Below, in pieces: positions 40,170 through 60,265 of a stretch of DNA of 64,000 bases. Position 1 is the first letter of the stretch. The number at the start of each line of letters is the position of its first letter. Both the position numbers and the translations under genes were made by a program. This stretch comes from Marinobacter sp. (GTDB lineage: Bacteria; Pseudomonadota; Gammaproteobacteria; Pseudomonadales; Oleiphilaceae): positions 124,001-188,000 of the forward strand of contig JAGYIS010000004.1 of assembly GCA_018402255.1 (NCBI GenBank), read 5' to 3'. The notes beneath the pieces were generated by a model. The model was not told the origin of the DNA. It ran no database searches and worked only from the letters and a program-made list of their open reading frames with translations.

Positions 40170-43100
40170 TTACTGTTGAGTGGATGGCGATAGATAGTTC
40201 AGGTACAGCTGCCGTTCGGGTATTGTCAGTGCCAGAGAGGTGCGGGGCCCTAAGCCGAGGAAGTTGCCTAAACCTCCCAGGGTGTTCCCGTCAATGACAA
40301 TATTCGGCAGTCCAACGGTTGCGGTGTTTCTTTGCAGAATTTGCATGCGCCCATCATCCAGAAAGGTAACGGGCCCCGATAGCTTGAGGTTGTTAATCGG
40401 AAAACTCCGCATATTATGGTCGAGCTCCGTCAGAGGGATTTCTGGTTTCAGATAAGGTGCGTCCATATACAGGTCCAGCTCGGTTTCAAACGTAAGTACG
40501 CCCTCAGCATTGGTAAATAGATAGCCGCTGATCAACTCGTTTCTTTCGTCCCCTTCATATCGCATGCGCATCAGCATGGGTCCAGTCTTTATGCTGTGAT
40601 GTTTCCCGACAAGCCAGGCCACCAGATCGGAAATGCTGACATTGACATCAAGTTCTGAGGTATACAGCACTGACGGGTGCAGCTTCACCGGAACTCTCCC
40701 CAGATCATCTGGTTGGCCGATTACCGCAACATCCAGCATTGCCGTCAGGTAAATGAATTTGTCTTGTTCGCAAGTCTGGCCAACGCGGCACCCAATATTC
40801 GCATTGTCGACCAGCGTGCTGTTCACACTGCCGGGCTGGTAGCGAACCTGACCTGAGTTTTCGATAGCGGCATAGGAGCCTGATTCGTCAGGCTGAACCT
40901 TTTGTTCCGGATTGGCGATCTGAAAATCACTGTTAACGTCTGCTGTTGGTAGGTTTCGCAGCGGAGCTAAAACTCCCGGACTCTCTGGGTCGCCGCCAAT
41001 GAAGTAATTCTCCATGGTCGGGCCGCCAAAGGTTCGAACAGGGTTGCGAATGGATTGGCTAAGAACCTGAGTCTGAAGTGGAAGATTGGCGATGGATTTA
41101 ATGCCATTTGCTCCAGATGTCAGGCGATAACGGTAGTGCGTGCCGGATTGCCAGCGCTCATTAGGAATGATCTTGATTTCTTGCGAGCTGACCTCCACGA
41201 CAAAGTCGGTGAATGCCTGCCACGCGCCGTCCTTGAATTCCTCCATTCGTACGGTGTCACCAGCGATGATTGAGTCGCTCTTCATAACCTGCGAGAAACG
41301 CACGACTACAGGTTGGTGGCCAGGATGCGCATGAATTGGCAGTAAATCGTCTGTACTTTTGCCTCCGGCACAACGGCCCTGATTGCCAGCTTCTGGATTG
41401 GTTGGAACGCTAACCTTCGCACATGGGTAACCAGGCAATGAGGTTAAGACCACGGGAGACTGATTGGTGGGGGTGTCCTCATTAGTGCGCGGTCGGGCGA
41501 ACACTTTTTCAGTCGGCGTCAGCGCATGGCCTGCGATATCGGTAATGCTACCCGAAAGTGACAGTCGGTACTCCCTTCCCCCTTCAAGCGGGGATTCCGG
41601 CGCGACTGACAGTGCCGAACCGTTGAGTGTAAGTTTAACCGGCGTTGGATCGTTTGGGTTGTCCGCGGGATACAACGTGACTGAGCTGCTTGTTACGGTG
41701 CTTGGGAGCAGAGGCTCAGAGAAGAACACCGTAAGGGGATCGCCGGGAAGCAGTTTGTCTACATCGGCAGTCTCAGGGGACCAACTCTTAACAAACGGAG
41801 CCTCTTGGTCCGCAAACTGCTCTGGCGAAGGCGCGTCCTTCTCAAAACGGAAGCCTTCAAGCCGGAATGAGATCAGCCCTGAGGCCTGGTCTACGCCCAT
41901 CACCTCGGGTTCAATAACGCCAACCGCCTCTATGGTCAGTGTGCCGTCTTCAACGATCGCTGTTCCGACCAGCTGCACGTGCATCAGCTGTTGAGCGAAG
42001 GCTGCGTTTGCAACCGAATTATCGGCGTTCAGCGCCATGTCGATGTACAGCTCGACCAGTCGAGGGGCATCCTCGGCGTCGGTGTACGGGTTGGGCATCA
42101 AGAACCCGTTGGCATCGGAGATGAATCGAACGCTCACATCTTCGGATTCGAAACCGGCCGGTACCGCTCCGGCAACATTAATCACGACGCTGGAGCCAGT
42201 CATTAACGATCCGCGGCTGATGGCCAAAGGTACGCTTTTGCCAACACGCTCAAATCGGGGAATGTATCCGAGCTCCGCGAAAACAACCCCGCCGGCGGTG
42301 GTCGGATTGTTGTCGCCAAGCAGCTTTGATTGCAGGTTCACCGTATTGAAGTCGGCACCGGAAATGGCAACCTGGCCCGCGCTGTCCGCTGCTTTTTGTG
42401 CAGCGAACTGACGCTCCCCGTTAGGGGATCGGGTATCCATCGGCTGAAAGGTCCAGGGGGCTTCCGCTGGCACGGTCAGGTTGGCGCCAAGAATGTCACT
42501 CTGGATGCCGTCGGTCACGTCAATTGAATAGGTTTGCGTCGGGTCCAGGTAATCATTCGGATCGACGGTCAGGCGGTGCCCGCGCAGGTAGACTTCTGCG
42601 GGCACCAGTTCGCCTTCGCTGTCGAGCAGGCTGAAGGTTTCGCCGTAGACAACCGTTGAGGCTTTGACCGGCTCAGTGAATTGAACTCGCAAGACTGACA
42701 GGTCGGTTGCAGGATAGCGGTCGTCACCCAATGGGATCAGCCGTGCAACGCGGAAGTCGACACCTTCAGTCTGGCTCAGTAGAGGGCCACTGGTTGACGG
42801 CTCAGTCTTGAACACTATGCCGTCGTCTGTGAGGGCCACGGCTTGCCCGGCCACTTCCAGCCCGTCTGCCGTCAGTGTGTAGACCCGGCCTGGAGACAAG
42901 GTCTCAGCAGGCTTTACCGCCAAGCCCTTATCGCCGGCGGTGAGCATCGCCGCTTCCAGCGCGACGATATTGCCCTGATCATCTTTCAGGATCAGAGCGT
43001 CCGCGATATCGCTTTCGGGCGTAGTAATCCGGTCGGTAAAGCGCAGAAAAACAGGCGCACTCACCGGCACGGCGGTGGTGAACATGTGCTGCCCGTCAGC

Positions 43101-43235
43101 CATGACCGGGGTGTCTGCCGGATAGGCAAAATAGAGCTCCGGTGCAGCCGCTGACTTGCTTACCGTCTGCGTATCGCCACCGCAACCCACTAGACCGAGA
43201 CCCGCAGTTGCGAGTGCAATCATTGTTTTTTTCAT
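40170..43235 (-). CDS. Large lipoprotein with SbsA/Big_5 Ig-like domains, AupB-like
   Basis: The 1021-aa product has a lipobox LVGC with the lipid cysteine at residue 18. At least four bacterial Ig-like (Big_5) units are visible by the pattern VxF-(S/T)-x-PxxxxTV: VFLRFTDRITTPES, LRVQFTEPVKASTV, VFFSEPLLPSTVTSS and VVRFSQVMKSDSI. The gene starts ten bases after a FadL-like outer-membrane protein gene. That pair and domain make-up resemble AupA-AupB of Marinobacter, where AupB is a lipoprotein acting with AupA in uptake of poorly soluble hydrocarbons. The identity is by resemblance and synteny only. Confidence 0.7.
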   Translation of the reverse strand: MKKTMIALATAGLGLVGCGGDTQTVSKSAAAPELYFAYPADTPVMADGQHMFTTAVPVSAPVFLRFTDRITTPESDIADALILKDDQGNIVALEAAMLTAGDKGLAVKPAETLSPGRVYTLTADGLEVAGQAVALTDDGIVFKTEPSTSGPLLSQTEGVDFRVARLIPLGDDRYPATDLSVLRVQFTEPVKASTVVYGETFSLLDSEGELVPAEVYLRGHRLTVDPNDYLDPTQTYSIDVTDGIQSDILGANLTVPAEAPWTFQPMDTRSPNGERQFAAQKAADSAGQVAISGADFNTVNLQSKLLGDNNPTTAGGVVFAELGYIPRFERVGKSVPLAISRGSLMTGSSVVINVAGAVPAGFESEDVSVRFISDANGFLMPNPYTDAEDAPRLVELYIDMALNADNSVANAAFAQQLMHVQLVGTAIVEDGTLTIEAVGVIEPEVMGVDQASGLISFRLEGFRFEKDAPSPEQFADQEAPFVKSWSPETADVDKLLPGDPLTVFFSEPLLPSTVTSSSVTLYPADNPNDPTPVKLTLNGSALSVAPESPLEGGREYRLSLSGSITDIAGHALTPTEKVFARPRTNEDTPTNQSPVVLTSLPGYPCAKVSVPTNPEAGNQGRCAGGKSTDDLLPIHAHPGHQPVVVRFSQVMKSDSIIAGDTVRMEEFKDGAWQAFTDFVVEVSSQEIKIIPNERWQSGTHYRYRLTSGANGIKSIANLPLQTQVLSQSIRNPVRTFGGPTMENYFIGGDPESPGVLAPLRNLPTADVNSDFQIANPEQKVQPDESGSYAAIENSGQVRYQPGSVNSTLVDNANIGCRVGQTCEQDKFIYLTAMLDVAVIGQPDDLGRVPVKLHPSVLYTSELDVNVSISDLVAWLVGKHHSIKTGPMLMRMRYEGDERNELISGYLFTNAEGVLTFETELDLYMDAPYLKPEIPLTELDHNMRSFPINNLKLSGPVTFLDDGRMQILQRNTATVGLPNIVIDGNTLGGLGNFLGLGPRTSLALTIPERQLYLNYLSPSTQQ

Positions 43236-43245
43236 GATGAGCCTC

Positions 43246-44583
43246 TCAGAACTTCAGGGTGACTGAGCCACTGACAACGTGGATGTCGCCGTCGGCCGTT
43301 ACCGCTTCTTCGTTGCCATTGAAGTCAACAATCGTGAAATCGCGTTCCTGCAGTTGCTGGTACTGGTAGCCGATATCAAAGCGAACCGGGTAAGCCAGTA
43401 ACCGGGTCCGGTTGTAGGTGGCACTCAGGCCCAGGCCAAGCACAATCTTGTCGGTGTCGAGATAGTTAACCTCAGGATTGCGGGTCGATTTGAGCGGCGA
43501 CTCCTCGTAGGCAATGCCAGCCCTCAGAGCAAAGTTCTCGTTCAAAGTGTATTCGCCACCCAGGCGAGGCACCAGAATGTCGTCGAACTTCATCCGACTG
43601 GCCGGTGCAACATCGCCCTGATCTTTGATGCTGTCGCGGGCGAAGATACGCTCCAGCTCCGACCAGTTTTGCTGCTCCAGGCTGCCGCCAATCCGCCAGC
43701 CTTCACCCCGATACTGGGTGCCGATGCTGAGGGTTTCCGGCTGGAAGGAGTCGATGGTGGAGACCGCCAGGCTCAAGCCCGGATCAGGAATGGTCTGGCT
43801 CACGATCACGTTGGACGAAATGGTGGTCGATGAGGTGGACTTGGTGCGATAGGCAATGGCCGTTTCCCAGCCACTGAGGAAGCAGTTGCTCTCAGGGCAG
43901 AAGGTTTCACCGTGATCAATATTGACGCTGAGGATGCTTTTCAGCGATGGCTTGGCGTTAACGCTGAGTTTTTCCTTCTCGGTGTCGCCGGCCAGGTTGG
44001 AGGTCGCGATCAGCTCCGCTTCGGCTTCCAGGGTGATTCGAGCCGACACGCCCGCGTCTATTCCGCGCCAGATACGGGTTGCGCCACCCAGATTCAGGAA
44101 TAGCGGCTCTTTTCCGTACTGCAGAAACTGACCGGTTTCGGAGGTCTCGGATGAGAACGCGAGCATCTCCTTACCGTACTTTTCCACGCCGGCAATAAAG
44201 CCAAGATACAGCGGATGGCCGAAGCGAGTGAGTGATCCCAGGTTGGTCTTCATGCCGACCAGAACGTGCTGGCTCGGGGAGCTGGAGACCACATCGCCGT
44301 CGCGATTCGGGCCGGATGCGCGCAGTTCCTGTTCGGCATGCAGCAGGCCGGTGGTCAGCTCACCCCGTGGGTCTTTGGTCAAATAGGCAGGGTTGTAGTA
44401 GGTGGCTGAAACCTGATCGTTAAACATCGACAAGGACTGGGCGGTCGCCACATCAACAGGCATCACGCCATAGCTGGTGCCCAGATTGCCCATGCTGGCA
44501 CTCACAGGGATAGCAAAGGTGGTGGATACAGCTGCAACAGCCAGGGACACCGCCCGTACCGAAAATCGGGGGGAAAGAACCAT
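43246..44583 (-). CDS. FadL-like outer-membrane protein, AupA-like
   Basis: The 445-aa product has a signal peptide (AVSLAVAAVSTTFAIPVSAS) and an OmpP1/FadL-type start (DVATAQSLSMFNDQVSATYYNPAYL, with NPA as in the FadL plug). Beta-barrel sequence follows and ends in VTLKF, a C-terminal phenylalanine for BAM assembly. It is more divergent than the FadL at 16111-17586. The adjacent lipoprotein supports an AupA-like role in hydrophobic-substrate uptake. An A-rich CA motif lies 20 bases upstream of the start. Confidence 0.75.
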   Translation of the reverse strand: MVLSPRFSVRAVSLAVAAVSTTFAIPVSASMGNLGTSYGVMPVDVATAQSLSMFNDQVSATYYNPAYLTKDPRGELTTGLLHAEQELRASGPNRDGDVVSSSPSQHVLVGMKTNLGSLTRFGHPLYLGFIAGVEKYGKEMLAFSSETSETGQFLQYGKEPLFLNLGGATRIWRGIDAGVSARITLEAEAELIATSNLAGDTEKEKLSVNAKPSLKSILSVNIDHGETFCPESNCFLSGWETAIAYRTKSTSSTTISSNVIVSQTIPDPGLSLAVSTIDSFQPETLSIGTQYRGEGWRIGGSLEQQNWSELERIFARDSIKDQGDVAPASRMKFDDILVPRLGGEYTLNENFALRAGIAYEESPLKSTRNPEVNYLDTDKIVLGLGLSATYNRTRLLAYPVRFDIGYQYQQLQERDFTIVDFNGNEEAVTADGDIHVVSGSVTLKF

Positions 44584-44823: not shown

Positions 44824-44850
44824 TATAAAAAAGCTCCCGGAGGGAGCTTT
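44824..44850 (-). terminator. Intrinsic terminator of the PEP-CTERM gene
   Basis: AAGCTCCC-GGA-GGGAGCTT forms an 8-bp stem, followed on the minus strand by TTTTTTATA. It lies 27 bp past the stop. Confidence 0.85.
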
Positions 44851-44876: not shown

Positions 44877-45479
44877 TCAGGCCGGGCGGTGCAGTTTTCT
44901 GCGCAGAGTGGCCAACCCCAGAATGCCCAGGCCTAGCAAGCCGAGCGTGCCTGGCTCGGGAACCTTGGCGATATCCTTGTAATAGAGGTTGACGTGGGAC
45001 AGGCCACCACCCTTCGGTTTATCAAAGCTCGAACCGTGGAAAAACGCCCATGAGCCGGAACTTACGCCATCAGCGAGAGAAAACACAAACCATTCATCTG
45101 GCTGGTTGCCAGTACCAAACTTGAAGCCAAGGGCAGCATGGGCGTAGTTGTCCCAGAAGCTGCTGTCGAAGCTCCAGGTCCCTGTGCTGCCATTCTGGGC
45201 GTAGTGAATGTTGAATGGATTGGCACCGCCGGTTTTGCCGGCACTGAGATAACCCACACCGGTGCCACCGTTGTTGATAAACAGGTCGTTGTGATTGGCG
45301 CCGGTGATGTTGCCTGAGCCGGAAGCCAGGCAAGCAGAGGCTTCTGTATCACTGATCTGCATGTAATTGATGGTCGGGTTGGTGTTGCAGGAGATGACAG
45401 CCGCCTGGGTGTATGGCGCCGCCAACAGCAGGACACTGAGGCCGAAAAATAGTCTAGAAATGCTTTTTTGTGCGGTCAT
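44877..45479 (-). CDS. PEP-CTERM sorting-domain protein
   Basis: The 200-aa product has a signal peptide (LFFGLSVLLLAAPYTQAA) and a classic exosortase tail: VPEPGTLGLLGLGILGLATL followed by RRK. It should be exported, processed by an exosortase and released or anchored at the surface. The middle (SSFWDNYAHAALGFKFG) contains few charges and two or three cysteines; its role is unknown. The exosortase genes are not in this window. A strong AAAGGAGG site precedes the ATG and a sigma-54 promoter precedes that. Confidence 0.92.
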   Translation of the reverse strand: MTAQKSISRLFFGLSVLLLAAPYTQAAVISCNTNPTINYMQISDTEASACLASGSGNITGANHNDLFINNGGTGVGYLSAGKTGGANPFNIHYAQNGSTGTWSFDSSFWDNYAHAALGFKFGTGNQPDEWFVFSLADGVSSGSWAFFHGSSFDKPKGGGLSHVNLYYKDIAKVPEPGTLGLLGLGILGLATLRRKLHRPA

Positions 45480-45520
45480 GATGGGCCTCCTTTGGCGACA
45501 TGCTTAACCCTGTTCACGTT

Positions 45521-45538
45521 AAGCAGGGGCTATGCCAA
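45521..45538 (-). promoter_or_regulatory. Sigma-54 promoter of the PEP-CTERM gene
   Basis: On the minus strand TTGGCATAGCCCCTGCTT has GG and GC exactly ten bases apart (-24/-12 spacing) and matches most of the sigma-54 consensus. Transcription would start near 45511, giving a leader of about 32 bases. Sigma-54 promoters are known ahead of PEP-CTERM genes in exosortase-bearing bacteria with PrsK/PrsR. Confidence 0.75.
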
Positions 45539-45650
45539 GAGGAGAAAGTCGATTTTTCACAATAAGATGGGTGTTTGGAGCAAAGCCGGCAGGCGTCCAA
45601 CTGTAAAGAAAGTCAACATGTGCCAGGTCTGCCGTCAGTCCAAAAATGAC

Positions 45651-45685: not shown

Positions 45686-45762
45686 TGGTGGGCCCACCTG
45701 GACTCGAACCAGGGACCAAAGGATTATGAGTCCTCTGCTCTAACCAACTGAGCTATAGGCCC
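45686..45762 (-). tRNA. tRNA with CAU anticodon (Ile2 or elongator Met)
   Basis: The 77-nt cloverleaf includes an encoded CCA. The acceptor stem GGGCCTA pairs with TGGGCCC (one G-U), the D arm is AGCTCAGTTGGTTAGAGC, the anticodon loop is ACTCATAA, and the T arm is GGTTCGAGTCC. The anticodon stem GAGGACTCATAATCCTT and variable region TTGGTC resemble isoleucine tRNA whose C34 is changed to lysidine (ileX type) more than elongator methionine tRNA (metT). Automatic tools would often label it Met. It lies between rpoD and the PEP-CTERM gene. Confidence 0.9.
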
Positions 45763-58870: not shown

Positions 58871-60265
58871 TTAGCTTTTCTTGCGCGGGATGCCCAGGCG
58901 TTGCCGTCGCTCCCAAAGTGATTTTCGGCTGATGCCCAGTTTTTGGGCCAGTTCGGTTTCACTCATCCGGTCCTGATTTTCCAGCACAAAATGCTGGAAG
59001 TAATCCTCCAGTGACAAGTCGTTGGCAGAATCGGTCTCACGGGTACGGGTCTGTTCATTGTTGCCCTCTACCAGGGTTTCCGGGATGTAGTCATCGCCGA
59101 AATCGTTGTCCAGATCGAGCACGCCCGGTGTGATCACGTCGCCGTCGGTCAGAATGGATGCTCGCTCAATGGCGTTTTCAAGTTCCCGGACGTTGCCAGG
59201 CCAGCGGCAACGTTCAAGAGCCTGCATGGCCTCCGGGCTGAGGCTGAGCTCGGGCCTGCCCAGTCTTTCCGCCTGCCGCTTCAGGAAGCGACGGGCCAGG
59301 CCCAGAATGTCGGACCGACGCTCCCGCAAGGGTGGAATCCGGATTTGCATCACGTTCAGGCGGTAATACAGATCCTCCCGAAACTCACCAGTGCGGGTCA
59401 TGGCTTTCAGGTTTCGGTGGGTGGCGGCAATCATTCGTACGTCTACGGTGCGGCTCTGGGTGGAGCCTACTTTGCGTATTTCGCTTTCCTGCAACACCCG
59501 CAGCAGCCGCGCCTGGGCTTCGGCCGGCAATTCACCAATTTCGTCCAGAAACAGGCTGCCGCCATCAGCGGCTTCGATCAAACCCGTCCGGGCAGACACA
59601 GCCCCGGTAAAGGCGCCCTTTTCGTGGCCGAACAGTTCAGACTCAATCAGGCTTTCGGGGATGGCTGCGCAGTTGACTGAAATCATCGGTTTGGTGGCAC
59701 GTGGGCTAAGCAGATGCAGCGCTCTGGCGGCCAGTTCCTTACCGGTGCCGGATTCACCCTGGATCAGCACCGTCGTTTCTGTGGGCGCGACTTTGCGAAT
59801 CAGTGTGAAGACTTTCTGCATGGGCTCACACTGGCCGAACATGATGGCCGAGGGGTCGGATGCCTCCGCACTGTGCTCCCCGGAAGAATCATCACTGGCC
59901 AGATTGCCCATGTCGGTGTTTTTGCGGGCCAGAATGTTTTCGACCGCCGCCAGCATCTCGTCGTGATCAAAAGGTTTGGCAATGTAGTCGACGGCGCCCA
60001 TTTTCATGGAGTCGACGGCAGAGCGCAGGCTGGCGTAACTGGTCATGATCAACACCGGGGTGTTCGGGGCGCGATTGATCATCTCGGTACCGGCAGCACC
60101 GGGCAGCCGAAGATCGGTGATCACCAGGTCGAAGCTGTCTGGCTCAAGCAGGTCTGCTTCTTCGACGGAGACGGCATCAGCTACCTCGTAGCCGGCATGC
60201 TGAAGCAGTTTTCGCACTGCAGATCGAATAATGTCTTCATCTTCAACAATCAGAATGCGGGGCAT
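58871..60265 (-). CDS. cbrB: NtrC-family response regulator CbrB
   Basis: CbrB activates sigma-54 promoters for carbon/nitrogen balance. The 464-aa product has a receiver domain with the phospho-aspartate in LVITDLRLPG, a AAA+ sigma-54 domain (GESGTGKE, FGHEKGAFTGA with the sigma-54 loop intact) and a Fis-type HTH (AQKLGISRKSLWERRQRLG). It starts seven bases after cbrA. Gene order cbrA-cbrB-crcZ-pcnB matches pseudomonads. Confidence 0.96.
   Translation of the reverse strand: MPRILIVEDEDIIRSAVRKLLQHAGYEVADAVSVEEADLLEPDSFDLVITDLRLPGAAGTEMINRAPNTPVLIMTSYASLRSAVDSMKMGAVDYIAKPFDHDEMLAAVENILARKNTDMGNLASDDSSGEHSAEASDPSAIMFGQCEPMQKVFTLIRKVAPTETTVLIQGESGTGKELAARALHLLSPRATKPMISVNCAAIPESLIESELFGHEKGAFTGAVSARTGLIEAADGGSLFLDEIGELPAEAQARLLRVLQESEIRKVGSTQSRTVDVRMIAATHRNLKAMTRTGEFREDLYYRLNVMQIRIPPLRERRSDILGLARRFLKRQAERLGRPELSLSPEAMQALERCRWPGNVRELENAIERASILTDGDVITPGVLDLDNDFGDDYIPETLVEGNNEQTRTRETDSANDLSLEDYFQHFVLENQDRMSETELAQKLGISRKSLWERRQRLGIPRKKS

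Follow-up and report, generated by a model that had tools for sequence, protein, structure and literature searches.

A two-part PrsR/sigma-54 promoter element predicted ahead of a PEP-CTERM gene in Marinobacter and recurring across the genus

The window analyzed here, a 64-kb stretch of DNA from a Marinobacter genome whose named orthologues are mostly from the same genus, carries on its minus strand a gene coding for a 200-amino acid PEP-CTERM protein. The protein combines an N-terminal signal-like stretch and two conserved cysteines with a C-terminal sorting tail, VPEPGTLGLLGLGILGLATLRRK (the ORF ends in VPEPGTLGLLGLGILGLATLRRKLHRPA), and scores above the cut-offs of both TIGR02595 (25.7 bits, cut-off 16) and PF07589 (31.2 bits, cut-off 20.7). 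The generic domain excepted, none of the NCBIfam subfamily models matched the protein at its own cut-off, and the PepA family model reached 23 bits, under its cut-off of 80. The gene and its surroundings are organized as follows.

44830..44850, minus strand: terminator-like hairpin 3′ of the PEP-CTERM gene
44877..45479, minus strand: PEP-CTERM gene, 200 aa, supported by profile matches and by 16 close loci (the gene itself included)
45486..45491, minus strand: ribosome-binding sequence AGGAGG, read from the sequence
45522..45538, minus strand: motif 2, sigma-54 −24/−12 element TTGGCATAGCCCCTGCT, found at the same place in close orthologues
45557..45569, minus strand: weak IHF-like site CATCTTATTGTGA, at a position enriched in the genus, tentative for this promoter
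45602..45618, minus strand: motif 1, predicted PrsR (enhancer) box TGTTGACTTTCTTTACA, a motif defined in PMC1569441
45653..45672, minus strand: terminator-like hairpin 3′ of the tRNA, separating it from motif 1
45686..45762, minus strand: tRNA-Met (cat), upstream of the promoter region

The hairpin that follows the PEP-CTERM gene is consistent with a single-gene transcript. Just downstream lies aupA (43246-44583, minus strand), an alkane uptake gene matching NF041571 over its cut-off, after which comes a gene for a 1021-amino acid Big_5-domain protein (40170-43235, minus strand). The presence of aupA, together with the Marinobacter origin of most named orthologues, is the basis on which the genus was assigned. 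On the other side, four loci in other Marinobacter genomes (L049, L050, L053 and L054) carry apparently non-orthologous PEP-CTERM genes beside the same tRNA-Met (cat), and in the last three the promoter is of the same type as in the window, as if PEP-CTERM cargo were exchanged at one chromosomal site.

Between positions 45538 and 45521, the minus strand reads TTGGCATAGCCCCTGCTT, with exactly 10 nt separating GG from GC (GG-N10-GC), and the last base of motif 2 is 42 nt from the ATG at position 45479. The earlier note had reported exact −24/−12 spacing 42 bases ahead of a PEP-CTERM start, and both values are confirmed here. Motif 2 differs from its consensus YTGGCACGRNNNTTGCW at three positions. 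Matches to this consensus with at most three mismatches number 30 in the 64-kb window against 40.8 expected from shuffles, so that motif 2 by sequence alone is not rarer than chance; because of this chance-level frequency, we rejected motif 2 on its own as proof of a promoter. The same count is what would be expected of a fortuitous −24/−12 look-alike, with the gene transcribed by read-through or from another sigma factor. This explanation is contradicted by the statistics of the two-part element and by its conservation among orthologues, both given below, as well as by the terminator-like hairpin between the tRNA and the PEP-CTERM gene and by our failure to find a sigma-70-like promoter around this gene. 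We regard it as highly improbable.

Proteobacterial PEP-CTERM genes have been described as preceded by a 17-nt motif 1 that terminates in TTTACA, proposed to be the PrsR site, followed after a spacer of 62.8 ± 10.6 nt by a sigma-54 motif 2 that lies 71 ± 38.5 nt ahead of the start codon (Haft et al. 2006, PMC1569441). In the window, motif 1 is the upstream member, is 17 nt long and ends in TTTACA, with T instead of C at position 4. It is separated from motif 2 by exactly 63 nt, and both this spacer and the 42-nt distance to the start fall inside the ranges published in PMC1569441. When the composite was defined as motif 1 with at most one mismatch plus motif 2 with at most four, we found a single occurrence in the 64-kb window, compared to an average of 0.07 in shuffled windows, and none when the surrounding 211 nt were shuffled 3000 times. 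It is the pairing with a PrsR box 63 nt upstream that makes the −24/−12 element convincing. This box, which is absent from the earlier note, is the decisive evidence for the promoter. The earlier observation on the element was correct, even understated.

Analysis of the whole genome (G000; 3.51 Mb in 10 contigs, 99.2% complete) identified seven PEP-CTERM ORFs over the cut-off, and the composite lies upstream of all seven, with spacers of 49, 75, 64, 63 (the window), 49, 82 and 74 nt. Seventeen further sites combining TTTACA with a loose motif 2, located elsewhere than at PEP-CTERM promoters, were not counted because motif 1 is degenerate in them, with 2-4 mismatches. The genome also codes for PrsR (680 bits, cut-off 503), PrsK (686 bits, cut-off 300) and PrsT (417 bits, cut-off 312), whose intact genes prsT, prsR and prsK stand side by side at G000:C1:1850-8269, and for RpoN (PF04552, 239 bits, G000:C7:502863-503339). 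The proposal of the earlier note that sigma-54 control is exerted through PrsK/PrsR is thus supported by the PrsR box and by the presence of prsK, prsR and rpoN, and its suggestion of a regulon of exosortase substrates by the recurrence of the two-part element at every PEP-CTERM gene found. The note had also placed the system genes elsewhere in the genome, which holds for PrsK, PrsR, PrsT and RpoN while the exosortase is absent from the assembly.

Since about a dozen NtrC-like regulators are encoded in this genome, one of them in the window, a sigma-54 promoter could also be driven by an enhancer-binding protein other than PrsR. Twelve matches to the PrsR model were obtained at E below 1e-20, among them the one at about 59102-60256 of the window, but the true PrsR stands far over the cut-off whereas the others fall short of it, and the TGTC-N7-TTTACA box tracks PEP-CTERM genes throughout the genus. 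Activation by another member of this group is accordingly very unlikely. The gene in the window (minus strand) codes for an NtrC-like sigma-54 activator and adjoins a histidine kinase gene; the two are under the PrsR and PrsK cut-offs.

We observed the same organization in relatives. Close orthologues, ten of which were aligned, are 46-67% identical to the PEP-CTERM protein of the window, and both motifs are present in 16 of 16 close loci, comprising the gene of the window and 15 orthologues (L032-L047), and in 28 of the 29 loci listed. On the scale of the genus, 107 of 120 genomes contain the composite, while a backwards control pattern gave two matches across all 120. When 60 unselected sites were taken consecutively, 47 were judged to lie directly before a PEP-CTERM gene, a number that falls to about 45 after reading of the individual rows, two of the 47 having the appearance of false calls in coding sequence. 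Three other loci (L196, L214 and L242) carry correctly spaced composite sites before ORFs of 425-584 amino acids without a recognized PEP-CTERM tail; these ORFs are possible non-substrate members of the regulon.

Taken as a whole, these observations lead us to interpret the element as a Marinobacter promoter that depends on PrsR and RpoN and drives a monocistronic PEP-CTERM transcript, with a probability of roughly 0.93, PrsR binding and activation being what we infer from them. Counting against this interpretation are the three departures of motif 2 from its consensus, the T for C in motif 1, the weakness of the IHF-like site and the lack of an exosortase in the assembly.

The spacer between the two motifs is not distributed evenly. 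Across 130 sites of the genus, from which repeated coding-sequence matches recognized by eye had been removed beforehand, spacers measure 49-53, 62-64 or 73-75 nt, with five exceptions. PEP-associated sites in the unfiltered set of 60 have spacers of 49-53, 61-64 or 73-74 nt, and a wider set of sites also includes a few of 82-92 nt. These three classes (about 50, 63 and 74 nt) fit an activator confined to one face of the helix, may be what lies behind the published standard deviation of 10.6, and seem to be a new refinement.

The spacers also tend to contain an IHF-like sequence. With at most one mismatch, the IHF consensus YAANNNNYTGATW was found in 32 of 65 spacers, whereas shuffling of dinucleotides gave 9.7 (maximum 19) and permuted IHF consensuses gave at most 16. 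The commonest placement, with 16 matches, is in one orientation at 31 or 32 nt before motif 2. Among 43 promoters outside the discovery set, 20 have a match, against 5.9 in shuffles, and 11 have it at the 31/32-nt position, against 0.4. The site of the window itself differs from the consensus at three of the nine specified positions. IHF usually acts between enhancer and promoter at sigma-54 promoters (PMC7962754); we found no published report of IHF at PEP-CTERM genes in the literature searched, though one may still exist, and the genus-wide enrichment of an IHF-like site at a constant position within the spacer seems to be new. We therefore lean, with some reserve, toward a three-part architecture for Marinobacter PrsR promoters, in which the box would lie about 50, 63 or 74 nt from the −24/−12 element, in discrete registers of the helix, and IHF would bend the spacer from a site centred ~25 nt upstream of that element.

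A plausible sequence of events would begin with PrsK, a membrane histidine kinase, phosphorylating PrsR. PrsR would bind the TGTC-N7-TTTACA box (45618-45602), probably confined to one helix face relative to the promoter, and remodel the RpoN-RNA polymerase sitting at 45538-45522; IHF may assist by bending the spacer. The PEP-CTERM gene would then be co-expressed with the other PEP-CTERM genes of the genome, and an exosortase would presumably process their products for the surface or the exopolysaccharide matrix.

The search for epsH/xrt suggested by the earlier note came back empty: the assembly yielded no exosortase at E ≤ 10, none with PF09721 at E ≤ 0.01 and none with TIGR02602. By the terms of the earlier note this would refute its proposal, a conclusion that we rejected after the synteny comparison below. 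A first explanation is that the exosortase has truly been lost, the promoters and sorting tails being relics or serving another processing enzyme, which would be compatible with the promoter interpretation above. The lack of any PF09721 or TIGR02602 match in an assembly that is 99.2% complete speaks for such a loss, given that 107 of 120 genus genomes have an exosortase, usually 4-9 kb from prsR. So does the closed, single-contig genome of the relative G004, in which the models used detect three PEP-CTERM matches but neither exosortase nor PrsR. G004 may itself have truly lost the PEP-CTERM/exosortase system. On the contrary, prsK, prsR and prsT are intact in the genome of the window, and comparison with the closed relative G082 points to a gap. 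Counterparts of the genes at the right end of our contig C8 stop near G082:C1:1838.5 kb and counterparts of those at the left end of our contig C1 start near 1889.5 kb, leaving between them an exosortase/EPS interval of ~51 kb with the G082 exosortase at 1885.3 kb. Both of our contigs break off inside the flanking genes, which code for a glycosyltransferase and a PA14/thrombospondin-type protein (names assigned by visual inspection and a weak match to MtsD), and the right end of C8 matches mostly at 70-96% identity with gene order kept. We rejected the glycosyltransferase at the left end of C8 as the opposite border of the gap, since it is just 48-57% identical to the cluster enzymes. Neither the small contig C10 nor those contig ends that were scanned contained an rRNA operon. 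Because the G082 locus falls between the genes where C8 and C1 stop, we ascribe the absence of the exosortase to the assembly: judging by synteny, its locus most likely lies in the gap between C8 and C1, and a gap appears much more likely than true loss, which we consider unlikely.

The PrsR/RpoN-dependent promoter proposed here shares with the element of Haft et al. 2006 a TTTACA-ended motif 1, a spacer near 63 nt, a sigma-54 motif 2, a monocistronic PEP-CTERM gene and the presence of PrsK/PrsR/PrsT in the genome. It differs in that the earlier study gives the spacer as a mean with standard deviation, whereas Marinobacter displays discrete classes together with enrichment of an IHF-like site; the text of PMC1569441 mentions neither IHF nor Marinobacter. 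A further parallel is pepA of Aquincola tertiaricarbonis RN12, a PEP-CTERM gene with an RpoN1-dependent, mapped −24/−12 promoter (TGGCAC/CTGCTT) and, as in the window, a predicted enhancer upstream (PMC9850573). RpoN dependence is experimental for Aquincola pepA, while the promoter of the window belongs to another host and is predicted from its sequence. Within the genus of the window, Marinobacter atlanticus has eight PEP-CTERM genes, several of which are raised in electrode-attached biofilm cells, according to passages on PEP-CTERM genes in PMC8233155 that do not mention promoters, RpoN or PrsR.

Our finding is sound yet largely expected, given that a two-part switch was predicted for PEP-CTERM genes in 2006: membership in the PrsR/sigma-54 class of PEP-CTERM promoters is known, and what is added is a modest refinement of promoter anatomy. 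The regulon predicted then is nonetheless confirmed from raw sequence and extended across the greater part of a marine genus that is well sampled (107 of 120 genomes). If the three-part architecture is true, IHF would gate the entire PEP-CTERM regulon. The box, the spacing classes and the IHF-like site define this regulon well enough for the role of PrsR to be tested in Marinobacter biofilms.
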